Below are positions 760-30,448 of a DNA stretch of 34,507 bases, piece after piece. The translations under genes and the position numbers were made by a program. Below the pieces are notes generated by a model, which was not told where the DNA came from, made no database searches, and saw only the letters and a program-made list of their open reading frames with translations. Within the stretch, counting starts at the first letter, position 1; each line of letters opens with the position of its first letter. Source of the DNA: Nitrospinota bacterium (GTDB lineage: Bacteria; UBA8248); assembly GCA_028820795.1 (NCBI GenBank), contig JAPPHK010000079.1, positions 1-34,507 of the forward strand, written 5' to 3'.

Positions 760-2037
760 ATGGCCTTCGGTCAATACGCAATGCCGCAGGAAGAGGAGAA
801 CTCCGGCGGCGTGTTTGAGCGGCTTTTGTCGCATAACGCCGGAATACTCGACCGCCCGGAGACGAAAGCGGCGCTCGCGCAGTTCGGCATTTCGATGCTG
901 CAGGGACGGCCTTTCGGCCACGCGGTAGGCGACGCCGCTGGAGCGGTCGGACGGCATCACCAGCAGCAACGGCAGGACGAACAGCAGCGGATCGCCAACG
1001 AGCGAAAGCAGGCTGAACTGGACCTGCGGCGGCAGGAAGTCGAAACCGCTGCACGCCAGGGCGATGAGCGACTTGCGACTGATCGTCTGCGGGCGGAGCA
1101 GGCTGGAGCGTACCAGCAAGGTATGCTCGAGAGTTCGGCGGCGGACAGGGCGTTGCGTCAGCAGCAATTCACCGAACTCTCCGCCTACCAACAGGCGCAT
1201 TTGAAAGCCCAAGCTTCGCAGGCGAAGGCAAAAATCCTTGCCGAAATGGGAATGGCGCAGTCGAAAGCGGCGAACGACTTGCTTGACGATCTGTTCAACG
1301 TCGCCGAGGCGCAGGCGGCAAATCAGTACGGAACGGAGCCGTTCCAGCTCGACACGAATGCGATACAAAATCAGTTCCGTTCGCTTGCGCCGCTTTACGG
1401 AATTCGCCTTCCTGATACTGTCGTTACGGCGGAGCAGTTACAAGCTCTGGCGGCGCGAGGGCGGACTCCGGAGCAGCTACGTCAGCTCGGAAATCGCCAG
1501 GGAATTCGCCTTGACCCCGGCGCTCAACAGTGGCTCGCCGCGCAGGGAACTCCGGGACTCGGCGTCGGCTCGGAACAGGTAGCCGCCGACGGAACGACGC
1601 CTCCGTCGCAAGTTCCGCAACAGACAGGAACTGCTCCTGTCCCCGACGCCGAGGCGGTGCCTGGCGCCCGCGGACGGCGTGAGCGTCGCATGACGTACGA
1701 GCCTGACATTCCCGAACCGCGAACTGTCACACAGCGTATCGGCGGTCGGCGAGTTACGCGCACGATTGAGCCGCCTCAGGCAGTTGAAACTGAACCGAAA
1801 GCAGTTCCTCCTGTCAGCCGAAGGCGTCAGCGCAGACAAGCAGCTGATACGGCGCAAACGAAAGCTACTGCCGAGGCTTCCGTAGCGAAGCTAAATGCTG
1901 ATCCAGACGAAATTGATTTTGCCGTCTGGCGTGAGGTCTTGAGTAAACCTGCAACCCGGGCCGCAGCAGTTCGCCGCTACGGTAAGGCCAAAATCGCCGA
2001 AGTGATGCGATTCCTGAGAGGGTTAGATGGCAAGTAA
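760..2037 (+). CDS. Glutamine-rich coiled-coil virion protein, probable internal/ejection protein
   Basis: 425 residues, ATG with GGGAGAT upstream. Residues about 25-60 hold a DRPETKAALAQFGISMLQG segment followed by a small Gly/Ala-rich hydrophobic stretch. Residues about 65-215 are charged and Gln-rich with long predicted helices (coiled coil). The C-terminal third is Pro/Arg-rich and ends in a compact segment of about 60 residues. N-terminal segments of this kind are common in uncharacterised phage proteins encoded just before giant internal virion proteins. It overlaps the 1874-residue gene by 11 bases, so the two are probably translationally coupled and assemble together. Function is inferred from position and composition only. 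Confidence 0.75.
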   Translation: MAFGQYAMPQEEENSGGVFERLLSHNAGILDRPETKAALAQFGISMLQGRPFGHAVGDAAGAVGRHHQQQRQDEQQRIANERKQAELDLRRQEVETAARQGDERLATDRLRAEQAGAYQQGMLESSAADRALRQQQFTELSAYQQAHLKAQASQAKAKILAEMGMAQSKAANDLLDDLFNVAEAQAANQYGTEPFQLDTNAIQNQFRSLAPLYGIRLPDTVVTAEQLQALAARGRTPEQLRQLGNRQGIRLDPGAQQWLAAQGTPGLGVGSEQVAADGTTPPSQVPQQTGTAPVPDAEAVPGARGRRERRMTYEPDIPEPRTVTQRIGGRRVTRTIEPPQAVETEPKAVPPVSRRRQRRQAADTAQTKATAEASVAKLNADPDEIDFAVWREVLSKPATRAAAVRRYGKAKIAEVMRFLRGLDGK

Positions 2038-5000
2038 TCTCGACTTTCTCGACGGATTAATCGACCAGCCGGTTTCCGATCCGTCAGTCGACTATCTCGA
2101 CGGACTGCTCGGGCCGCAGCAGCCGGCGCCGCAGGAGATCGAAACGCCCGAACAGCCGAGTATGATCTTTGGCGAGTTCGGGCGGGGCGTTCGCGTTGGG
2201 CTGCGGCAAGTCGGAACGGACTTCGCAGCACTCGGAGCCGTTGGCGCAAACATCTTCGATGCGAACGAAACCGAACAGGAGTTAATTGACCTTGTCCGCG
2301 AGCGGGGTGAAGAGTCGCATAAGCGGTTTCCGAAAACGGTGGCGAAGATCGAGGATATCGATTCCGTTTCCGACTTCGTCCGCTTTACGGCGCGGGCCTT
2401 GGGAGAGCAAGTTCCGGTTATTGCGTCTATCGTTGCCGGCGGCGGAGCAGGCGGATTGGCCGGGCGATTGGTTGCTCGGGGTGCGGCCAGCCGTATTGCA
2501 GCGCAGCAAGCTGTTTCGCGCCTACCTCGCGTCGGCGCGGGAGTCGGCGCAGTTGCAACAGCTTCCGGACTGGAAACCGGCGTTACCGCCGAGGAACAGA
2601 TTGGATCTGTCGGCGAGATTGATCCCGGGGTGGCGCTCACCGCAGGCATATTCAAGGGCAGCTTGGAAGCAATCGTTCCCGCCGCGCTCGGAGCTCGGCT
2701 AGGACTTACGCCGGACCTGTCACGCGGGCTGCTCGGTGCGGTAACGAATACGTTTAACCGAGTACTGCCGCGGAGACTCGCATCGGTGCCGGCAGTCGGG
2801 ATGACGGAAGGTCTGACCGAGGCGCTGCAGGAAAGCGTCGATATCGGCGCACGAGCGTTCGTCGATGAAAACTACGACGTGCTCTCCGAGGAGACGAAAA
2901 GCCGACTGATAAACGCGGCGGGAACCGGCGCACTCGTCGGTATGTTTTTCGGTCCGCTGTTCGGCGGCGGCGGAGCACTCGAAGGTAGTCCGGAAACGCA
3001 AAGTGCGGACGCGGTAGAACAGGCGCAAATCGCAGCGCAACAGCCGGCGGGATTGCTTCCGCCGCCGGCAGTCGAAATACCTCAGGGGCCGGCGGGGCTT
3101 CCAGCACCACCCGGGATTGTGCCGCCCGGAGGGGGTTTGCCGGCTCCTGAGGTTCCGTTGCAGATCACAGACCAGCGATTTCCCTCGGGGCCGATCACGC
3201 CAACCGAGGGCGTAATCCGAACCGAACAGGGAGTACTCGGACTTGGCCAAGGTCAGATCAATGTTCCTCCGACGGAGGGGCAAGTTACGCAGATTCCTCC
3301 CGCTCCGAATGCGGAATTTGCTGCACTTGAGCGGGAGTTACTTCCTGACCCGAACCACAAACTGACAATCGAAATCCCTGAGCCCAGTTCGGTATCGAAG
3401 GCCGAACAGCAACGACAGCGTCCGGCACCGATTACGCAGGCGGAGATTCCGAGTGCGGAAATTCCTGCGCGATCGTCGCGAGATCTCGAAGGTCGGGTTA
3501 TTCCGGTTAGCGAAGAGTTGTTTCTCGAGACTCTCCGTAGCGGCGACGCACGCACGGCGGCGAGTATGGCTGTGCAGCTTGGAGATCAGTTGCAGGAATC
3601 CGGACTGGACGTAGCGATCCCCGCCGACGCGAAGCGAAGCGAAAAGCGGTTGCTGGAAACCATCGCTGGCGGCAACCGCAGACACTTCGTCCCGTTCGCG
3701 GTTAACGTCGCGCGAAAGCGTGCGCGGGAAAGGGCAGCGTTTGAAAATGCCTTTCCGACGCGGGAGAGTCGGGAGCTGCAGCAGCTCGGAATCGACACCG
3801 TTGGAGATACGTTTACGACTGAGTACGGCAGCATTACCGATCAGCAGTTTCGCGAGATTTTCGACGATGTTGATTTCGGTCCGACGACATCGCAACGGTA
3901 CAATGAGCTAAGGCAAACAGTCGATCCTCTGCAGGCGCCCGAGTCGGTTGCGCGGAATTACGTTCGGGGATTTGTCGAGGGGACGAACACTCCGACAGAG
4001 CAGGTTGAAGCGGTCACGGATGAGATTATTTCGCTTACCCGGAGGAACAAAGTTCAGTGGATTGGCGCTGCGGTTACGCCGCAAATCTCGGAGCGGGCAA
4101 ATACTGTCGCCGATGCGTATAAGCAACTGAAGAGTCAGCTTAATATTGAAAGTGATATACTGGTTTTAACCGACATGAGCACGAATACTGATGCGGGAAA
4201 GTTCCGCTCGTCGGAGAATTTCGATATCATCGAACTGGACTTAAATAGTCCGAAATGGCGGCAGACTGCTATTCATGAATTCGGACATTTGCTCGTCACG
4301 CGGAAGTTCTACTCCGCCCCGCAGGAGATGAAAGAGGCACTCATCACCGCGTATAACGAACGCCTTATTCGGACGGAATTAGTCGAAGGCCTTGAAGGTT
4401 TTGGGTTGAACTTCGCTGGCCCGACACGAGGGCTCGACGTCGCGCAGATCGACCCGACAGGAGCGCAGATCAAAGCTGCCGCTGACTACTGGCTCGGGTT
4501 TGACGAGTTCATGGCGGAGCAACTTGTCCGTGCGGCGGCAAGTAATAATCCGGCGACGTCGGGCACGGGAAAGTTTTTCGCTGATTTAGCTACGCAGTTG
4601 AAATCGGCAATGAAGCGCTTGCTCGAATTCTTTGCAAAGCGAACAGGCAAAGACGAAGCTTGGGTTCGCGAACGGGCGAGGAATTTCCGCCCGGAGCGGG
4701 AGTACGAAGACTTCCTCGACTACGTGCGAGCCGCGCCTCGGGATAGCTATTCGCAAGACTATGCGCAATCGCAGGCGGAAAGCGTCGCGCGAAACGAGCG
4801 GAGACTCGACGAAAACGAGTGGCTCGGCCATGCAGACCGCGAAGCGGGTGCGGAATCAGCCGCGACGGCGTCGGTTAAGAATTTCCTGAAAAAGCTCAAA
4901 GTCGGCCAAAAAGAGATCGACGGCGTAACCGCGCCGGCGGATAAGTATAATTGGTTTATCAAATTGTTCTGGTCGATTCAGCAAATCGCGGACAAAAACC

Positions 5001-7651
5001 GCGGTATCGCTCCGCTGCAGCGTTACGTCGAACTCGTCGACCAGTGGTATATCTTCACCATGTCCTGGGTGTCGAAGGCGAACGACACGCTGCGGCAGTG
5101 GATTAGTTTGGGACAGAAGCAGGGTGCGGCGCTGTCGGCGTTGATCTACGACGTCGAAACGATGAGCTACCGAAAACAGGGAGAGTTCCTCGATCGACTG
5201 CCGACCGAGCAGGAATTGGCCGAACTCGCGCAGAAGCACGGAGTTAACGCCGCGGGGCTAGAGGTGTACCAGCGGATTCAAAGCGATTTCGCGGATGTCT
5301 TTAATCAAATCGAGGAAACGACCATTCGCGATATCCGACGGACTGTTCTCAACGAGCGACGGCAGATACAGGAAGTTACAAAGGTCCGCGAAGAGTTCGA
5401 CGCCGCGCGCCAGCGTCCATATTTCCCGCATTCCCGCTTCGGCGACTTCGCTGTCGTCGTACGCGATCGAGAAGGGAAAATCCTGTATATGGAGCAGTTC
5501 GGCACGCGGACTGCGGCGCGAAAGGCAGTAGGGAAAATTCGTCGCGACAATCCGGGAGGAATAACTACAATTCGAAAGGTGCCGAAGTCGGTTCAGGTTT
5601 TCCGCGGCCTGCCAGCGACGATGCTCGAAACGATCCGAAATCGGCTCGACTTGACCGAGGAGCAGCAGGGATGGCTTGACGATTTCCTTGCCGAGCTGGC
5701 GCAAAGTTCTGGGCTTAAGAAATCGTTTGCTCGACGAAAAGATACTCCCGGGTTTAGCCTCGACGCGATGCGGACGTATGCGAATTACTTTTTTCACGGC
5801 GCCCGGCACTTCGCTCGAATCGAGTACGGGCCGTTGATGGAACAGGAAATCGCAAACCTGACGGCTCAGAACGGTACAGTGGCCGACGGAATTGACATCT
5901 CAAAGCGCGATGCGCTGCGGGATTACATGGCGCAGCACTACGACTACATAATGAACCCGACAAACGACTGGGCGCAGCTGCGTTCGCTGGCGTTCATGTG
6001 GTGGATCGGGTTTGTAGTTCAAAGCGCCGCGTTGAATATGACGCAGATTCCTCTGGTTGGGTATCCGTGGCTGGCGAGTCAATTTGGGGATACGAAAAGT
6101 GTACTCGAATTGAACAAAGCGGCGTTAAAGCTGCGGCAACTGTACCAGAACAAACCCGGTGCGCTGCCAGAGAATTTCGCCAAGGCGCTCGATCGCGCTG
6201 TTCGCGAAGGCGTTGTTGACGAGTCGCAGGCGACCGAACTCGCCGGCGTTGCGCAAGGGCAGTACATCTCGCGGCTTATGCCGGGGACGAAAGTCCAGCG
6301 TATGCTGATGAACTTCAACCACTACGGTTCGTGGATGTTCGCGACAAGCGAAAAGATGAACCGCCGGATTATGTTTCGCGCAGCTTGGGAACTGGCACAA
6401 AAGACGAAGAATCAGAAATACCTCGATGAGCTGGTCGAGCAGAATTCGCTGCTGTACGAGGATTTGATTAACGACGGATACTCGCCGCAGGACGCGAAGG
6501 CGTATTTGTCCGGGCGAGATGCCGTTGAACGGACGCAGTTCCGCTATGCCGCACACACGCGCCCGGAATTCATGCGCGGGAAGAAGGGAGTGCTGTTTAC
6601 GTTCTTTATGTTTGTACAGAACATGGTCTGGTTCGCCGCGCACTCGCCGGGGAATACGAGGTTTCTCGTCATGATGCTCGCGATGGGCGGGCTAATGGGA
6701 CTGCCCGGCGCGGAGGATATGTCAGCGGCGGCAAAGTTTGCGAGTAAGAAACTGCTCGGAAAAGACTTCGACGTAGAAGAGGAAATCCGCGAACTCGTTA
6801 CGGAAATGCTTGGAAGTGACGTCCCGCCGGATCTGTTGCTGTTCGGCTCGAGTCGATACGGGTTTGGCTTACCGGCTGCGATGGATGCGCTCGGGCTGCC
6901 GAAGGCGCATTTTGACATTTCGGCAAATATCTCGATGGGACGGATCGTACCAGGGCTGGCGGAAATCCTCAGCGGCGAAGGCGACTTTGACTCGAAGTAC
7001 AACCGTGTTACGACTGATATTGCCGGGGCGAGTTTCGGCATTGGGCTTAACCTGTTAAAGGCGCTCTCCGACGACCAGTTACCCGCCGACGACTTCAAGC
7101 GGTGGGAAAGGGCAATGCCTCGGGCGCTCAAGAACATCAATCGCGCTGCGCGATATCTTGCTGAGGGGCGAGAACGAAGTCGAACCGGCGCGACGGTACT
7201 AGAATACGATCTAAGCGATCCGGATCACATGGCGGAGATATTCGGCCAGGCGTTAGGTTTCACTCCTGCACGTTCGACGCAGATGTATAGTTTCCTCAAC
7301 GCAAAGCGCGAAACGGAAATGTACTGGGGGACACAGCGCCGGATACTGCTGACGCGGTTCGATCAAAGCTATGTGTTAAACGATCCTGCGATGCGGAAGG
7401 ATGTTATGCAGGACATTCGGGCGTTCAATAAGAGAGTTCCCTTCCCGTCGATTGCTGTAACGGGAAGGGACATAGCGAAGAGTCGAAAACTGCGCATTCA
7501 GGGACGCAGGAAAGAAGAACTCGGGTTGGCGAAAACTCGTCGCTTTGCTCCGCTGGTAGAACAGGTTGAAAGCCTGTATCCGGAAGTTACCGCCGCGGAC
7601 GGGGAAGTTACGAACGTCGAGGATGCAGGGCGGATTGCGCGGGGAGGGTAG
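2027..7651 (+). CDS. Giant polyvalent internal virion protein with zincin motif and membrane segments
   Basis: 1874 residues; ATG with GAGAGGG upstream. The N-terminus carries two similar short motifs (DFLDGLIDQP and DYLDGLLGP). Residues about 125-310 are rich in Gly/Ala hydrophobic helices of ejection-protein type. Residues about 330-480 are Pro/Glu-rich linker. HEFGH at 750-754 and DEFMAEQ at 826-832 together form the HExxH...E pattern of the zincin metallopeptidases found in phage polyvalent proteins. From about residue 1324 (MWWIGFVVQSA) and about 1547 (MMLAMGGLMGL) there are membrane-compatible segments, in a C-terminal region resembling large-polyvalent-protein-associated domains. Expected role: packaged with the DNA and ejected, opening a path through the envelope. 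Peptidase activity is inferred from motifs. No transglycosylase motif was recognised. Confidence 0.8.
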   Translation: MASNLDFLDGLIDQPVSDPSVDYLDGLLGPQQPAPQEIETPEQPSMIFGEFGRGVRVGLRQVGTDFAALGAVGANIFDANETEQELIDLVRERGEESHKRFPKTVAKIEDIDSVSDFVRFTARALGEQVPVIASIVAGGGAGGLAGRLVARGAASRIAAQQAVSRLPRVGAGVGAVATASGLETGVTAEEQIGSVGEIDPGVALTAGIFKGSLEAIVPAALGARLGLTPDLSRGLLGAVTNTFNRVLPRRLASVPAVGMTEGLTEALQESVDIGARAFVDENYDVLSEETKSRLINAAGTGALVGMFFGPLFGGGGALEGSPETQSADAVEQAQIAAQQPAGLLPPPAVEIPQGPAGLPAPPGIVPPGGGLPAPEVPLQITDQRFPSGPITPTEGVIRTEQGVLGLGQGQINVPPTEGQVTQIPPAPNAEFAALERELLPDPNHKLTIEIPEPSSVSKAEQQRQRPAPITQAEIPSAEIPARSSRDLEGRVIPVSEELFLETLRSGDARTAASMAVQLGDQLQESGLDVAIPADAKRSEKRLLETIAGGNRRHFVPFAVNVARKRARERAAFENAFPTRESRELQQLGIDTVGDTFTTEYGSITDQQFREIFDDVDFGPTTSQRYNELRQTVDPLQAPESVARNYVRGFVEGTNTPTEQVEAVTDEIISLTRRNKVQWIGAAVTPQISERANTVADAYKQLKSQLNIESDILVLTDMSTNTDAGKFRSSENFDIIELDLNSPKWRQTAIHEFGHLLVTRKFYSAPQEMKEALITAYNERLIRTELVEGLEGFGLNFAGPTRGLDVAQIDPTGAQIKAAADYWLGFDEFMAEQLVRAAASNNPATSGTGKFFADLATQLKSAMKRLLEFFAKRTGKDEAWVRERARNFRPEREYEDFLDYVRAAPRDSYSQDYAQSQAESVARNERRLDENEWLGHADREAGAESAATASVKNFLKKLKVGQKEIDGVTAPADKYNWFIKLFWSIQQIADKNRGIAPLQRYVELVDQWYIFTMSWVSKANDTLRQWISLGQKQGAALSALIYDVETMSYRKQGEFLDRLPTEQELAELAQKHGVNAAGLEVYQRIQSDFADVFNQIEETTIRDIRRTVLNERRQIQEVTKVREEFDAARQRPYFPHSRFGDFAVVVRDREGKILYMEQFGTRTAARKAVGKIRRDNPGGITTIRKVPKSVQVFRGLPATMLETIRNRLDLTEEQQGWLDDFLAELAQSSGLKKSFARRKDTPGFSLDAMRTYANYFFHGARHFARIEYGPLMEQEIANLTAQNGTVADGIDISKRDALRDYMAQHYDYIMNPTNDWAQLRSLAFMWWIGFVVQSAALNMTQIPLVGYPWLASQFGDTKSVLELNKAALKLRQLYQNKPGALPENFAKALDRAVREGVVDESQATELAGVAQGQYISRLMPGTKVQRMLMNFNHYGSWMFATSEKMNRRIMFRAAWELAQKTKNQKYLDELVEQNSLLYEDLINDGYSPQDAKAYLSGRDAVERTQFRYAAHTRPEFMRGKKGVLFTFFMFVQNMVWFAAHSPGNTRFLVMMLAMGGLMGLPGAEDMSAAAKFASKKLLGKDFDVEEEIRELVTEMLGSDVPPDLLLFGSSRYGFGLPAAMDALGLPKAHFDISANISMGRIVPGLAEILSGEGDFDSKYNRVTTDIAGASFGIGLNLLKALSDDQLPADDFKRWERAMPRALKNINRAARYLAEGRERSRTGATVLEYDLSDPDHMAEIFGQALGFTPARSTQMYSFLNAKRETEMYWGTQRRILLTRFDQSYVLNDPAMRKDVMQDIRAFNKRVPFPSIAVTGRDIAKSRKLRIQGRRKEELGLAKTRRFAPLVEQVESLYPEVTAADGEVTNVEDAGRIARGG

Positions 7652-23877: not shown

Positions 23878-25401
23878 ATGAATACCGTGCCGCCTTCCAG
23901 TGCTACGGAGCTGTCCCGCGAGGAACTATTCGACCTCTGCGCGGGGGACAGCATTCTCTTCGAGCAAACGTTCTTTCCGAAAACCGTGCGCCAGGCGACA
24001 CCGCCATTCGCCCGAGACGTCTGGGCGGCGCTGGAAAGCTCCGCGCGGCTGGTCAACATTCAGATGTTTCGCGGCAGCGCAAAGACGACGCGCTGTCGGA
24101 TGTTCGCGGCGAAGCGCATCGGGTACGGACTCGCGCATACGATACTCTATATCGGGCTGTCGCAGGACAAGGCGATACAAAGCGTTCGGTGGCTTCGTAG
24201 GCAGATTGAGTTCAACCGGCCCTTTGCTGAGACTTTCGGACTGCGTCCCGGCAAAAAGTGGCAGGACGTCGAGTGCGAGATCGTCCACGAACTGCTCGAC
24301 TATCCGATAACGGTTCTCGCCTACGGAGTCACCGGATCCCTACGCGGCGTTAACCTCGACGACTATCGTCCCGACCTGATCATCGGCGACGATATACTAA
24401 ACGAGGAAAATACCGCCACGCCGGAGCAGCGGAAGAAGGTAAACGACCTGATCTACGGGGCGATCATCAACTCCCTTGCGCCGGAGACCGAAGCGCCCGA
24501 CGCGAAGTTCGTGATGACGCAAACGCCATTCAATCGCGAGGACCCGAGCACGAAGGCGTTAAACGACCCGGGGTGGCTGAGTCTGCGGGTTGGGTGCTTC
24601 ACTCCCGAAACGGCGAACCTCGAACTCGAGGCGCAGCGGTCGATTTGGGAGGATAGGTTTACCACGGAGAGCCTTCGCCGCGATAAGCGCAACGCCATTG
24701 CGCGAAACGCCTCCTCGACGTGGTATCGCGAAATGGAGTGCCGGATCGTCGCGCCGGAGAATACGGCGTTTCTCGCTTCCTGGCTGCAGTACTACACGCT
24801 TCAGCCTCCGATTGAGCAGATGCAAATCGTCTGTGCCATCGATCCCGTGCCGCCGCCGAGCGAAACGCAGATCGCCCAGGGGATGGCGAAAAAGGACTAC
24901 GAGGCGTTTGTCGTAATCGGACTCTTCGGCGGGAAATATTACCTCCTCGAATACTCGGCCAATCGCGGGCACGAGCCGGAATGGACGGTGGCGGAATTCT
25001 TCCGCCTCGGCCGAAAGTGGCGGCCGCAACAGTTCGTCGTCGAAACCGTCGCGTATCAGCGAACGCTGGTGTGGATACTCAAACGGGCGATGCAGCATCA
25101 GCGGACGTATTTCGTCGTAAACGAGCTGAGCGATAAGCGGAGCAAATACGACCGCATTCGCGATGCCTATTCCGGGCCAGCGAGTCAGCAGGCATTCTAC
25201 GTCAAGCAGGAGCATTCCGACTTCATTGACCAATTTTCCAACTATCCAGACGTGACCTATGACGACATCCTCGACGCCGGTGCGATGGCGGTGACGCGGC
25301 TTACACGGCTGGCCGATGCGGAAGGGGAAGCGGAAAGTCCGCTTAGAGAATTTGCTTCCGCCTCTGCGCCGCGGCTTGAATTCGCCTACGGGGCGCCGTG
25401 A
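23878..25401 (+). CDS. terL: Terminase large subunit (packaging ATPase-nuclease)
   Basis: 507 residues; ATG preceded by GGAAGG. The ATPase shows Walker A FRGSAKTT at 64-71 and Walker B DLIIGDD at 166-172, with a coupling motif FVMTQTPFNR at 211-220. The nuclease domain begins around residue 315 with CAIDPVP (D322), and the later acidic residues include VVETVAYQ and the DDILDAGAMA segment near the C-terminus. TerL pumps DNA into the prohead through the portal encoded next and cuts the concatemer. The stop overlaps the portal start. Confidence 0.93.
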   Translation: MNTVPPSSATELSREELFDLCAGDSILFEQTFFPKTVRQATPPFARDVWAALESSARLVNIQMFRGSAKTTRCRMFAAKRIGYGLAHTILYIGLSQDKAIQSVRWLRRQIEFNRPFAETFGLRPGKKWQDVECEIVHELLDYPITVLAYGVTGSLRGVNLDDYRPDLIIGDDILNEENTATPEQRKKVNDLIYGAIINSLAPETEAPDAKFVMTQTPFNREDPSTKALNDPGWLSLRVGCFTPETANLELEAQRSIWEDRFTTESLRRDKRNAIARNASSTWYREMECRIVAPENTAFLASWLQYYTLQPPIEQMQIVCAIDPVPPPSETQIAQGMAKKDYEAFVVIGLFGGKYYLLEYSANRGHEPEWTVAEFFRLGRKWRPQQFVVETVAYQRTLVWILKRAMQHQRTYFVVNELSDKRSKYDRIRDAYSGPASQQAFYVKQEHSDFIDQFSNYPDVTYDDILDAGAMAVTRLTRLADAEGEAESPLREFASASAPRLEFAYGAP

Positions 25402-27374
25402 TGCCGAGTCAAACGCTTGAAATAAAGCCGCAAACGCCGCTCGCTCGGCGCATCCTCACCTCGGTGCAGGACCGCGTTCAGGCGAGTCGAAAGCAGTACG
25501 GGCTGCAGCGTAAACGCTGGCGCGAGGCGGAGCGGGAAGCCGTAGCGTATCTGCCCGAAACCGAGCGGGACTTCCACGCCCAGACGAAACGCCGTACCGG
25601 ACAGCCGGAATATAAAACGCTCAAGCTGCCGTACAGCTACGGTATGCTCCTTGCGTCGCACACGTATTGGACTACTGTGTTCATGTCGCGGAGTCCGATT
25701 AATCAATTTACCGGTCGGCACGGGGAGTCGCAGCAGCAGATCCAGGCGCTTGAGGCGTTGATCGACTATCAAGTCCGCGTCGGCGATCAGATGGTGCCGC
25801 TTTATCTGTGGCTCTACGACGCCGGCAAATACGGACTCGGCGTCGTGCATAACGGCTGGGTCGAGGAGCAGTCGGTCGTTGCGAGTATTGAGGAAACGCC
25901 GGAGCTGTTCGCGGGCGTTATCCCTACCGGGCGGACAAAGAAGCGGAAAATCAGTCGGACCGTTCGCGGCTATGCGGGCAATCGGCTGACAAACATCCGC
26001 CCATACGACTTCTTCCCCGACCCTCGCGTGCCGGTGCGGTTTTTCCAGAAAGGCGAATTCTGCGCCGCGCGGCACGAACTCGGGCTGAATACCGTAATGA
26101 AGCGGGCCGAGCAGGGATACTACATCGAGGAGGCGCTCAAGCACGTTCGGCAGCGCGAGGTTTCCCACGGCGCGACAGTCGACGACGCCTATCGCGAATA
26201 CGGTAGCGAGGTGGTGCAGCTTCCTCTCGACGATTCGTTCTTCGTCTACGACAAGCACAACCGAGACGGGAGTTCGATCAACAACATTCTGGTCAAACTC
26301 GTCGAGTGCACAATCGAGCTTATCCCGAAGGACTGGGGGCTCGGCAGCGGGACGTATCCGGAAAAGTGGGTGTTCAGCACCACCGCCGACTTCAACGTGC
26401 TCCTCGGCGCGCAGCCGCTTGGGCGCAATCACGACAAGTTCGAGTACGCGGTGCTGGAATACGAGCCGGAGGGGTATGGGCTTACCTCGCGGGGGATTCC
26501 GGAGATAACGCAGCCGATCGGCGAGACGCTCGACTGGCTGGTCAACTCCCATCTGTACAACGTGCGCAAGACGCTGAACGACCAGTTCATCGTCGACCCC
26601 AGTCGCATCGTCGCCGGCGATTTAAATAACCCGCTGCCCGGCGGAATTATCCGGATGAAGCCGCAGGCCTACGGCGAGGACGTGCGGACGGCGATTACGC
26701 AGCTTTCCCAGCACGATGTAACACGAACGCACCTGAATGATATGAGCGCCTTGCAGGCATTCGGTCAGCGGGCGTTCGGCATCAGCGATCAAATCCAGGG
26801 AGCGATCCCGCCGACCGGAAGACGCTCGGCGACGGAAGTCCGAACCGGTGCTGGGTTCGGAATCAACCGACTGAAAACGACTTCCGAGTTCTTCTCGTTC
26901 ATGGGTTGGGCGCCGCTGGTGCAGATGCAGGTACAGAACTCGCAGCAGTACTACGACGAGGAAAAGAAATTCCGGATCGTAGGCGACTTGCTCCAAGGTG
27001 CCGGACAGGGCTTTATCGACGTCACGCCCGAGGACATTCTTGGATTCTACGACTACGTGCCCATCGACGGCACTATGCCGATTGATCGCCTGGCGCAGTC
27101 GCAGCTGTGGACGCAGCTGTTCGGGCAAATTTCACGCTTTCCGCAGGTCGTGCAGCAGTACGATATGGGGCGGATTTTTGAGTGGGTTGGGCAGCTTGCT
27201 GGGCTGAAAAATATGTCTCGGTTCAAGATCGAACTCCAGCCCGACGCGCTGCTCGCGCAGCAGGCGCAGCAAGGGAATGTTGTACCGCTGCCGACGCAGA
27301 CGACGCGAGGCAATCCGGCGCCGGAGCAGCCTCCGCAACAGACACTTCAGGGCGGGCCGGGAGGGCTTCCTTGA
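25401..27374 (+). CDS. Portal protein (head-to-tail connector)
   Basis: 657 residues from ATG 25401, which overlaps the TerL stop as TGATG; a GTG at 25398 is an alternative one codon longer. Long portal of podovirus type: an N-terminal helical region, a mixed middle (LIPKDWGLGSGTYPEKWVFS), a conserved stretch RGIPEITQPIGETLDWLVN and a segment SDQIQGAIPPTGRRSATEVR typical of portal stems, and a Gln-rich tail. It forms the dodecameric ring at the capsid vertex through which DNA enters. Gene order and these segments make the assignment secure. Confidence 0.88.
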   Translation: MPSQTLEIKPQTPLARRILTSVQDRVQASRKQYGLQRKRWREAEREAVAYLPETERDFHAQTKRRTGQPEYKTLKLPYSYGMLLASHTYWTTVFMSRSPINQFTGRHGESQQQIQALEALIDYQVRVGDQMVPLYLWLYDAGKYGLGVVHNGWVEEQSVVASIEETPELFAGVIPTGRTKKRKISRTVRGYAGNRLTNIRPYDFFPDPRVPVRFFQKGEFCAARHELGLNTVMKRAEQGYYIEEALKHVRQREVSHGATVDDAYREYGSEVVQLPLDDSFFVYDKHNRDGSSINNILVKLVECTIELIPKDWGLGSGTYPEKWVFSTTADFNVLLGAQPLGRNHDKFEYAVLEYEPEGYGLTSRGIPEITQPIGETLDWLVNSHLYNVRKTLNDQFIVDPSRIVAGDLNNPLPGGIIRMKPQAYGEDVRTAITQLSQHDVTRTHLNDMSALQAFGQRAFGISDQIQGAIPPTGRRSATEVRTGAGFGINRLKTTSEFFSFMGWAPLVQMQVQNSQQYYDEEKKFRIVGDLLQGAGQGFIDVTPEDILGFYDYVPIDGTMPIDRLAQSQLWTQLFGQISRFPQVVQQYDMGRIFEWVGQLAGLKNMSRFKIELQPDALLAQQAQQGNVVPLPTQTTRGNPAPEQPPQQTLQGGPGGLP

Positions 27375-27411
27375 TATTCCGTTTTTGTGGCTTTAGCAAA
27401 AGGAGAAAGCC

Positions 27412-27777
27412 GTGACCTGGACAGCCAGTTTCGCCGACAACCGCACCGAGGAAAACCTGACCCATCAGGTCGCCGGGCATGACGGCGAGGCCGAACGCCG
27501 CAGTACGATGGCCTTTAACCCCGGCAGCCACAAGTCGACCTTCGACATCAAGATCGCTATCTGCGCGGCTATGAAAACAATCATCGACCGGCGGACGAGC
27601 GTGCAAGACGCTTATAATAACCTCGATACTGAAAATCTGGGTATTGCGGAAATGGAGCGGGCCGCTTACGTCGACGCTATGCGCTGTTTTGAGAAGGCGC
27701 TGAATCAGCTGGAGATCGCCCAGATGTTCGCGGTCAAAGCGTTGCACACACGAGCGAACGCAGGGTTGAAGGACTGA
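27412..27777 (+). CDS. Acb2/Tad1-like cyclic-nucleotide sponge (probable anti-CBASS/anti-Thoeris protein)
   Basis: 121 residues from a GTG with AAAGGAG upstream. The sequence AFNPGSHKSTFDIKIAICAA at 34-53, followed by a C-terminal helix with LNQLEIAQMFAVKAL at 97-111, matches the FNPS...iK...A and (T)hLEeAqMWAVKAl pattern that I associate with the Acb2/Tad1 hairpin family. These small oligomeric proteins bind CBASS cyclic di- or trinucleotides or Thoeris signals and so block host defence. The insertion YNNLDTENLGIAEMERAAY separates the two helices. It lies between portal and scaffold, a position shared by other small phage genes. Similarity is from memory and must be checked; it might also be a minor head protein. 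Confidence 0.55.
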   Translation: MTWTASFADNRTEENLTHQVAGHDGEAERRSTMAFNPGSHKSTFDIKIAICAAMKTIIDRRTSVQDAYNNLDTENLGIAEMERAAYVDAMRCFEKALNQLEIAQMFAVKALHTRANAGLKD

Positions 27778-27781
27778 TTCC

Positions 27782-28099
27782 TTGACCAACGAACTCGAAA
27801 CTGAAGCCGAAACCGAACTCGACGCACTGCGGGCGCAGTACAAAGCGCTGTCGGAGCTGGCGTCGAGCGACGGGTGGAAGATTTTTTCCGCGTATCTCTC
27901 CGCGCGAGAAACGGCGGACTTGCGCAGTCTCCTCGCTCGTGACGCGCGTTCGCGGAGGGAGTTTCTTGCCGGGTCGGTTTCGGCGGCGAAGGAGATCGCG
28001 ACGTGGCTGTCTGAGTCGCTGCGGATAACTGAGGAGCAGATTTCGCTCCGCGTGGAGCAAAAGCAGGAAAACGAACCCGAGGACATGAACGATGGCTGA
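27782..28099 (+). CDS. 105-residue acidic helical protein, unknown function
   Basis: TTG start at 27782 supported by AAGGA eight bases upstream; no ATG or GTG start is available before residue 100. Predicted mostly helical with conserved-looking AQYKALSELASSDGWKIFSA in the first half and a charged C-terminus (LRVEQKQENEPED). It overlaps the scaffold gene by eight bases. The position between portal and scaffold suggests a head assembly role. No family recognised. Confidence 0.68.
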   Translation: MTNELETEAETELDALRAQYKALSELASSDGWKIFSAYLSARETADLRSLLARDARSRREFLAGSVSAAKEIATWLSESLRITEEQISLRVEQKQENEPEDMNDG

Positions 28100-29123
28100 C
28101 AAAAACGATATCGTCGAGACGGAAGAAGAACCGGCTCCGGAGGCGGAAACGGAAACCGAACTCTCCGACGAAGAAAACGCGCTACAGGAATTCCTCGCCG
28201 ACGACCTCGATGAAGAGCCGGATCAGCTCGAGCCGGACGAGAAAGAGGAAGCGGAAACGGCGCCGGCCGAGGAAACCGTTGTCGCTACTCCCGCGGAGGA
28301 GACTGATAAAGCCTCCGTTGAGTCGGACGCGGAAAGCAAAGCCGCGACCGAGGACAAACCTGCGTCGGAGCAGAAGACTCTGACCGAAACTCTTGCGGAC
28401 ATTCTTACGCCGAAGGCGGAGGAGCAGTCGTCCGAGGAGTCGAAGCCCGAGTCCTCCGAAAGCGAGGTTCGTCCATCTCCGGAGCCTCAACAGCAGCAAC
28501 CGGTTGAGGCGCCTCAGCAAGCTCAGTCGCAGGAGACTCAGCAGCCTACACAGGACGACGCAATCGAAGCCGCGCGGCTGGAGTACGGCGAACGAATTGC
28601 GGACTTCTACGGATCGCTGATGACCGAAGAACTGGTCGAAGAGTTGCAGACGAGTCCGGAAACGTTCATGCCGAAGATGGCGGCGCGGATGCATCTGGAT
28701 ATCATGGACGCCGTGAAGCAGGAAATTGCTTCGTCGATGCCGGCGCTTATGCGGCAGTATAGCGAAACGGAAACGGCGCGCTCGGAAGCGGAGGATAACT
28801 TCTTCGCGTTCTGGGATCAACAAGGCGCGGACTTGCGTCCGTATCGGCAGGATCTCGAACGGCTGAGTGCGGCATATCGGGCGGTCAATCCGGGAGCTTC
28901 GATCGAGGAGTTCACACGTTCGGTTGGGGCTCAGGTGATCGTTACGAATGCTGGAGCGTTTCAGAAACTGGCAAGTGCGCAGGAAGAGCCGCAGACGAAT
29001 AAGCCGAGCTTCTCCTCGGCGGCGGCGGCTTCCGGGCAAAGCGGTGTCATTGCTGGAACCCAGGCCCGAACGGGCTACGATGCGCTGGACTTCGAGCTAT
29101 TCGAAGACAGCCCTGACGACTGA
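28092..29123 (+). CDS. Capsid scaffolding protein
   Basis: 343 residues. The first 150 residues are highly acidic and repetitive (EEEPAPEAETETELSDEE; Gln/Pro-rich from 130 to 160). The rest is helical with charged residues (FYGSLMTEELVEELQTSPET; ARMHLDIMDAVKQEIASSMP) and ends in an acidic tail, FELFEDSPDD. Size, composition and the location directly before the major capsid gene are those of tailed-phage scaffolds, which guide capsid assembly and leave before DNA packaging. No protease domain is seen, so it is likely released or cleaved by another factor. Confidence 0.82.
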   Translation: MADKNDIVETEEEPAPEAETETELSDEENALQEFLADDLDEEPDQLEPDEKEEAETAPAEETVVATPAEETDKASVESDAESKAATEDKPASEQKTLTETLADILTPKAEEQSSEESKPESSESEVRPSPEPQQQQPVEAPQQAQSQETQQPTQDDAIEAARLEYGERIADFYGSLMTEELVEELQTSPETFMPKMAARMHLDIMDAVKQEIASSMPALMRQYSETETARSEAEDNFFAFWDQQGADLRPYRQDLERLSAAYRAVNPGASIEEFTRSVGAQVIVTNAGAFQKLASAQEEPQTNKPSFSSAAAASGQSGVIAGTQARTGYDALDFELFEDSPDD

Positions 29124-29140: not shown

Positions 29141-30448
29141 ATGACGAGTTTCGCAGGACTGCGCGGAACGGGTAGCTTCGGAGCGGACGAACGCCCGAAG
29201 AACTTCCGCGAGATGATTCTGTTCCGCAACCCGAACGGAACGGCGCCTATCTTCGCACTCACGTCGAAGATGAGCAAGAAAACGGTGGACGACCCGGAAT
29301 TCTCCTGGTGGGATGAGCCGAATGATGTAGTGCGGCTGAGGGTCGACGGCGCGGTGGCGCAGGCAGGAACGACCGTCGTCGTCGACGGAGTCGATCCGAG
29401 TGCGGCGAGTCCGGGAAATTCCTGGGGTCACGGCAACAATGTCGTGCCTGGCGATCTGCTGCTGGTCGAGCCGAGCTCCGACGCGGCGGCGTGGAATCCG
29501 GAAATCATCCTCGTGACAGCGAACGCGGCCGGCGCCGACGCGGCACACCGAAGTCTGACTGTCGCTCGCGGGCAGCTCGGAACAGCGGCTCCGTCGGGAA
29601 ATCAGTCCATTCCGAACAACGCGACTCTGCTGAAGATCGGCAACGTCAACGCCGAGGGCACACGCGCTCCGATGGCGGCGACGCGCAATCCGATCAAGTA
29701 CAGCAACCTCTGCCAGATCTTCAAGAACACCTACAAGGTGACGGGGACGGCAGCGAAAACTCGGTTCCGTACGGGCGATCCGGTCAAGAACGACAAGCGG
29801 CGGAAAAGCTTCGATCACGCACGGGACATCGAGCTTTCGATCCTCTACGGCCGTCGGAGTGAGGGGACGGGCTCGACGCTGGCTGAGGGGCGCGAGACGG
29901 CGGTGACGGGGCTTCCGCAGCGGACGATGGGCGGGCTGCGGCAGTATATTCCGTCGACAATCCTGTCCTCGTCCGCGTCGATGAACACTCTTCTCGACGC
30001 AGTCAGTACCGTGTTCGACTGGGAGTCGCCGGCCGGCGACGAGCGGCTCGTGTTCTGCGGGAACGGGGCGCTCAACGCCTTCAACAAGGCGATCACGCAG
30101 CGCGGGGCCACGGCGAGTTCTGCCTTCGACCGAGTCCAGTACAAGTCGGACGAAATGACCTACGGCACGCGCTTCATGCGGTATCGCGTGCCGCAGGGCA
30201 ATCTGTTCCTGAAGGTCCATCCGCTGATGAACCGCGTTCCGATCCTGAACAACGCGATGTTCATCATCGACCCGAGCTGCCTCAAGTACGTCTGCGTTCG
30301 CGGGCGGGATACTCGGATGATGGACAACATCCAGGAAAACGATGAGGACGCAATCCGGGGTCAGTGGATGACCGAGTGCAGCATCATGGTCGACAAGGGC
30401 GGCCTGACGATGAAGTACATCGGGGCGATGAATAACCTGGACGCGTAG
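29141..30448 (+). CDS. Major capsid protein (SU10/DUF5309-like, HK97 fold)
   Basis: 435 residues; ATG with AAAGGA upstream. The sequence (FREMILFRNPNGTAPIFALT; KYSNLCQIFKNTYKVTGTA; GGLRQYIPSTIL; LVFCGNGALNAFNKAI; MFIIDPSCLKYVCVRGRDT) follows the SU10-type major capsid pattern. Residues about 80-165 appear to be an inserted strand-rich domain. There is no obvious delta-domain or protease site. It forms the icosahedral shell. A very stable hairpin (repeat copy 5) begins seven bases after the stop. Confidence 0.9.
   Translation: MTSFAGLRGTGSFGADERPKNFREMILFRNPNGTAPIFALTSKMSKKTVDDPEFSWWDEPNDVVRLRVDGAVAQAGTTVVVDGVDPSAASPGNSWGHGNNVVPGDLLLVEPSSDAAAWNPEIILVTANAAGADAAHRSLTVARGQLGTAAPSGNQSIPNNATLLKIGNVNAEGTRAPMAATRNPIKYSNLCQIFKNTYKVTGTAAKTRFRTGDPVKNDKRRKSFDHARDIELSILYGRRSEGTGSTLAEGRETAVTGLPQRTMGGLRQYIPSTILSSSASMNTLLDAVSTVFDWESPAGDERLVFCGNGALNAFNKAITQRGATASSAFDRVQYKSDEMTYGTRFMRYRVPQGNLFLKVHPLMNRVPILNNAMFIIDPSCLKYVCVRGRDTRMMDNIQENDEDAIRGQWMTECSIMVDKGGLTMKYIGAMNNLDA

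Follow-up and report, generated by a model that had tools for sequence, protein, structure and literature searches.

The head operon analysed here contains an additional gene at 27412-27777 (+), whose 121-residue product is very probably homologous to the Acb2/Tad1 hairpin superfamily, the relationship being traced through an intermediate family of viral proteins. Acb2 sequesters the chemical alarm signals by which infected bacteria kill themselves. In our analysis the protein is probably an accessory cyclic-nucleotide sponge, expressed from the late operon and directed against CBASS (or Thoeris). The Acb2 family is already known, and the protein is a plausible further member of it rather than a novel system.

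The window, i.e. the whole stretch of 34,507 nucleotides that was analysed, is an entire contig of a 322-contig genome bin that is 79% complete. It reads as a tailed phage: the large terminase matches phrog_38 (E 1.6e-72), and genes of phage replication are present, including those for a DNA polymerase, a primase, a Dda-like helicase, an exonuclease and a Sak4-like protein. No integrase was recognised among the window genes scanned. At 2027-7651 (+), a protein of 1874 residues matches DarB-like antirestriction proteins as well as giant uncharacterised phage families (phrog_11358 and phrog_10089), and could be a second counter-defence factor or an injected virion protein. The features of the head region are the following:

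25398-27374 (+), SU10-type portal protein, upstream neighbour (PF23899, 2.1e-14, 53 bits; phrog_332/1216)
27400-27405 (+), ribosome-binding site AAGGAG, 6 nucleotides before the GTG start, read directly
27412-27777 (+), divergent Acb2/Tad1-hairpin protein of 121 residues, predicted cyclic-nucleotide sponge (reading frame, profile, hhalign, AlphaFold2)
27514-27552 (+), FNP-x8-IK block, F35 to K47, aligned to the cGAMP-pocket stretch Y8...K23 of T4 Acb2 (alignment; PMC10097602)
27532-27618 (+), predicted hairpin helix 1, residues 41-69 (AlphaFold2 model)
27637-27759 (+), predicted hairpin helix 2, residues 76-116, with R91, A96, A103, A107 and K109 (AlphaFold2 model, alignment)
27782-28099 (+), small head-operon gene conserved in related phages, 105 residues, downstream neighbour (profile of the relatives, E 3.9e-4)
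28092-29123 (+), scaffold-like acidic protein (composition, and position between the small gene and the major capsid gene)
29141-30448 (+), SU10-type major capsid protein (PF17236, 2.1e-29, 103 bits; phrog_1328)

The 121-residue reading frame is confirmed as a real gene. It is open from its GTG codon, begins 37 nucleotides after the stop codon of the portal gene and has a neighbour-like GC3 of 0.74 (terminase 0.74, portal 0.76). An earlier note, made from the sequence alone, had described a gene with a GTG start and a strong ribosome-binding site between portal and scaffold, and the AAGGAG motif, the GC3 and the neighbouring genes bear this out. Both peptides that it quoted are indeed present in the product, FNPGSHKSTFDIKIAICAA starting at residue 35 and LNQLEIAQMFAVKAL spanning residues 97-111. 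Neither the 27782-28099 gene nor the scaffold-like gene has a family match in Pfam or PHROG.

A family HMM search, which the earlier note had proposed as a check on its assignment to Acb2/Tad1, gave a divided answer when performed with the protein itself. Acb2_Tad1_hairpin (PF24729) ranked first in Pfam, yet its 14.1 bits fell short of the cut-off of 27, while T4 Acb2, taken as a control, scored 71.4 bits; removal of the central stretch of the protein brought its score to only 15.6 bits. The best PHROG was phrog_717, a weak match (E 0.11). PADLOC gave no match and NCBIfam nothing useful, and single-sequence searches of viral contigs, genome contigs and phage records brought up no close homologue. 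Pairwise similarity to T4 Acb2 is negligible, and matches to TPR and MdtN were discarded as chance resemblances between helices. When genomes of the host phylum and of a second phylum were searched for PF24729, nothing exceeded the cut-off, a 16-bit match on contig C122 being at noise level. At the sequence level, direct searches by themselves would thus not prove PF24729 membership.

The connection to the superfamily is made by a group of viral proteins carrying an FNP motif. Pattern scans of 2.9 million viral contigs, for DNA coding FNP-x8-IK and then AVKA either 30-40 or 40-50 residues on, matched at least 120 stretches each, and at least 237 loci hold the pattern within one open frame, mostly as proteins of 60-130 residues of the form GExRVGxxFNPSxxxxVxxIKxxxAxLID...RLxxLAxTxxExAAMWAVKAAT. 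Since a scan with a gap of 52-62 residues gave just 7 matches, of which the 6 in-frame ones all had 54 residues and none resembled the 121-residue protein, this enrichment does not reflect a chance rate. One of the candidate stretches, the viral locus L277, was also reached directly by tblastn from the 121-residue protein (E 2e-6). All 45 FNP-type representatives tested match PF24729 (best 1.3e-16), and 37 of them match phrog_717, in which Jenson et al. found homologues of Vs.4 (PMC10097602). Characterised Acb2 has been described as relatively rare (PMC11722364); the FNP-type group (loci L030-L269) is very abundant in viral contigs.

The 121-residue protein obtained 32.7 bits (E 1.1e-7) with a profile of 162 FNP-type proteins from which it, as the query, was excluded, compared with 22.7 bits for T4 Acb2 itself and at most 11.6 bits for 2000 shuffled sequences. 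Because the search pattern and the protein have nine residues in common, extra controls were run. When these nine residues were kept and the rest was shuffled, the maximum of 2000 sequences was 26.1 bits, and when they were masked, the query scored 8.0 against a masked-shuffle maximum of 5.9. Furthermore, hhalign of the protein against the FNP family gave Prob 96.2 and E 2.7e-9. The similarity to this family is beyond chance.

The AlphaFold2 model, obtained with 119 sequences, has a pLDDT of 85.2 and a pTM of 0.73, with 79 residues at 90 or above; values are mostly above 90 in the hairpin and low in the first 20 residues. A short helix (residues 26-31) is followed by a long hairpin (41-69 and 76-116). 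This predicted monomer fold is the Acb2 architecture, which consists of a short N-terminal helix and a long hairpin (PMC10419184). Foldseek found no significant match to the model in the PDB, T4 Vs.4 with cGAMP (7uq2) appearing at rank 43 (E 2.8, prob 0.72, TM 0.68 on target). Since an undisputed family member with 40 Pfam bits likewise gave no significant match, Foldseek is uninformative for short helical hairpins, whether run against the PDB or BFVD. In BFVD, the second match is named Acb2/Tad1 hairpin (probability 0.99).

In T4 Acb2, cGAMP is contacted by Y8, H11, K23, R79 and F82, the last being needed for cGAMP binding, and the hexamer interface involves L29, A66, A73 and A77 (PMC10097602). 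In the alignment with the 121-residue protein, K23 is kept as K47, the changes of R79 to K109 and of Y8 to F35 are conservative, although the latter drops a hydroxyl, and F82 is replaced by H112; H11 has no assignable counterpart. All three interface alanines are retained (A66/A96, A73/A103 and A77/A107), L29 lies where the alignment is gapped, and T68 corresponds to N98. K47, A96, A107 and K109 do not vary across the FNP group and R91 hardly does, with the reservation that K47, A107 and K109 belonged to the search pattern, while A96, A103 and R91 did not. An arginine is aligned to R91 in the Acb2 of Pseudomonas phage p26 as well. Judging from this alignment, the pocket and interface residues of T4 Acb2 appear to be largely kept or conservatively changed, and the changes at F82 and T68 could alter the choice of ligand. 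Collectively, the profile, hhalign, the predicted fold and the functional residues support the family guess of the earlier note.

The location of the gene, between portal and scaffold, is what one would expect of a head-assembly or head-decoration factor that is a helical hairpin by happenstance and has no defence role. Among portal relatives at 50-55% identity and named phages (the phages compared were Mel-JY34, VS-ABTNL-3, Kuura, a Desulfofustis phage and EBPR podovirus 3), a single small gene lies in this interval. At 12 related phage loci it matches the 27782-28099 gene and not the 121-residue frame; every related locus that was checked has a gene of the 27782-28099 type in the portal-scaffold interval. 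Indeed, a profile of the small genes of 11 relatives gives E 3.9e-4 for 27782-28099 and E 1.8e3 for the 121-residue frame. A match to a known head protein, named in the earlier note as evidence against its reading, was thus not found with the small head gene, and because the small gene of the relatives corresponds to the next frame, a role as a head protein is disfavoured. Moreover, no FNP-family gene was present in 11 viral contigs and in four related phages with complete genomes (best chance match E 4.7). Compared with related phages, this one carries the 121-residue gene as an additional insertion.

The surroundings of FNP genes elsewhere bear on the same alternative. Genes for terminase, PhoH, MazG, helicase and portal are among their large neighbours, and some positions would suit a head factor, namely those adjoining portal or terminase (TerL of phrog_2 in 14 of the 102 neighbours scanned) and, in phage PS3, a place flanked by genes of internal virion proteins. 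However, relatives also occur in early regions (EcP1 and elemo), beside lysis as well as terminase genes (Pmp11, Aaphi23 and DSL-LC05) and among nucleotide-metabolism genes; at L277, the relative lies near a gene that we read, from its open frame, as integrase-like. The survey of neighbours, made with a fixed structural role in mind, thus showed diverse contexts, and the positions fit an accessory gene. We therefore regard a head factor as unlikely.

Another possibility, to which we also give little weight, is that the protein, though a member of the Acb2/Tad1 hairpin superfamily, binds a non-immune nucleotide or a protein partner, and so is not a sponge. The loss of the F82 and T68 equivalents and the divergence of the region near the hairpin tip from the rest of the family would agree with such a function, and the literature searched contained no ligand-proven FNP-type member. 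Against it, the invariant lysine, the R/K position and the interface alanines are kept, and all characterised members named in that literature sequester immune nucleotides. A chance resemblance or a spurious reading frame is very improbable. The weak Pfam match and the lack of a close homologue in single-sequence searches of the viral and genome collections would be expected in that case, but the query beats all shuffles in three designs, and the strong ribosome-binding site, the neighbour-like GC3 and the 79 confidently modelled residues also speak against it.

A possible target of a sponge is found among the relatives of the presumed host, the assignment of phage to host resting on binning. 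No CD-NTase or SAVED gene was detected in the binned genome (79% complete), and of six further genomes in the genus to which binning assigns the contig, two carry CBASS operons. One (G004:C19:365000-373500, L287) comprises TRIP13, HORMA, a cyclase and a SAVED-PDDEXK endonuclease; the other (G002:C41:29000-36500, L288) has a cyclase and a SAVED-2TM (two-transmembrane) effector and adjoins a CapP-like gene. The SAVED endonuclease of the former, a cap4-like gene (L289), shares 62-82% identity with copies from many proteobacteria and from other phyla, which suggests wide transfer of this operon. No related portal was found in the other 17 genomes of the host family. Provided that this genus is the host of the phage, its operons offer an obvious target to a CBASS sponge.

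In the reading that we prefer, the late head operon carries an accessory gene whose product is a divergent Acb2/Tad1 hairpin protein of the FNP type. If it behaves like T4 Acb2 (Vs.4) and p26 Acb2, the protein would assemble into a hexamer of alpha-hairpins, in which F35/K47 and K109/H112 could line pockets between protomers. These pockets may bind cyclic di- or trinucleotides, and possibly also the Thoeris signal gcADPR, and the alarm signal would be removed before CBASS or Thoeris effectors fire. We infer both the sponge activity and the late or constitutive expression of the gene. A more specific version is speculative and, in our view, improbable: the altered pocket (F35, N98 and H112) of a long-hairpin FNP-type sponge would accept a signal that known Acb2 proteins do not bind, and placement in the late operon would time the sponge to a CBASS triggered by head proteins.

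The protein, as a candidate member, would widen the reach of the Acb2 superfamily to include a phage whose head genes are SU10-like and which is linked to a poorly sampled lineage of bacteria; members as divergent as this one are missed by the curated HMM alone. If the FNP-type group consists of sponges, phages sequester cyclic nucleotides more widely than one would conclude from the Acb2 proteins reported so far.

Compared with known systems, the protein shares with Tad1 (Thoeris anti-defence 1) the C-terminal two-helix hairpin named in PF24729, whereas the N-terminal beta-sheet of Tad1 (PMC12043709) has no equivalent in the model, in which no strands are predicted. With the FNP-type PF24729/phrog_717 proteins, exemplified by gene 43 of Providencia phage PS3, gp26 of EcP1 and gene 39 of Pasteurella phage Pmp11, it has in common the FNP-x8-IK, R, A and E/A-M-aromatic-AVKA pattern, as well as the short N-terminal helix followed by a hairpin. 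These proteins are, however, mostly of 60-100 residues, with shorter hairpins and about 20-34% identity to the 121-residue protein, whose hairpin is the longest among the FNP-type matches listed. The central insertion seen in the earlier note holds in relation to this group, since the IK-to-AVKA spacing is 59 residues in the query and 32-54 in its FNP relatives, but the same spacing is normal next to T4 Acb2 (53) and p26 Acb2 (56).

Along with this similar hairpin length, the p26 protein (PDB 8h2j and 8ixz) has the arginine that starts helix 2, R66 in the chain numbering of 8ixz, equivalent to R91 of the query; direct sequence identity is little, and p26 carries GYRD in place of the FNP motif. 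For a further structure, PDB 9ptq ('Acb2 homolog 43'), the literature search turned up no paper. T4 Acb2 (Vs.4; PDB 7uq2) falls by profile in the same hairpin superfamily and, besides K23, A66, A73, A77 and the basic position of R79, also has M75 conserved. It differs at the three positions Y8, T68 and F82 (F35, N98 and H112 in the query) and in its N-terminus, with 7 residues before the tyrosine against 34 before the FNP motif. Finally, the T4 gene is located in the vs/regB region, whereas the gene described here lies in a late head operon.
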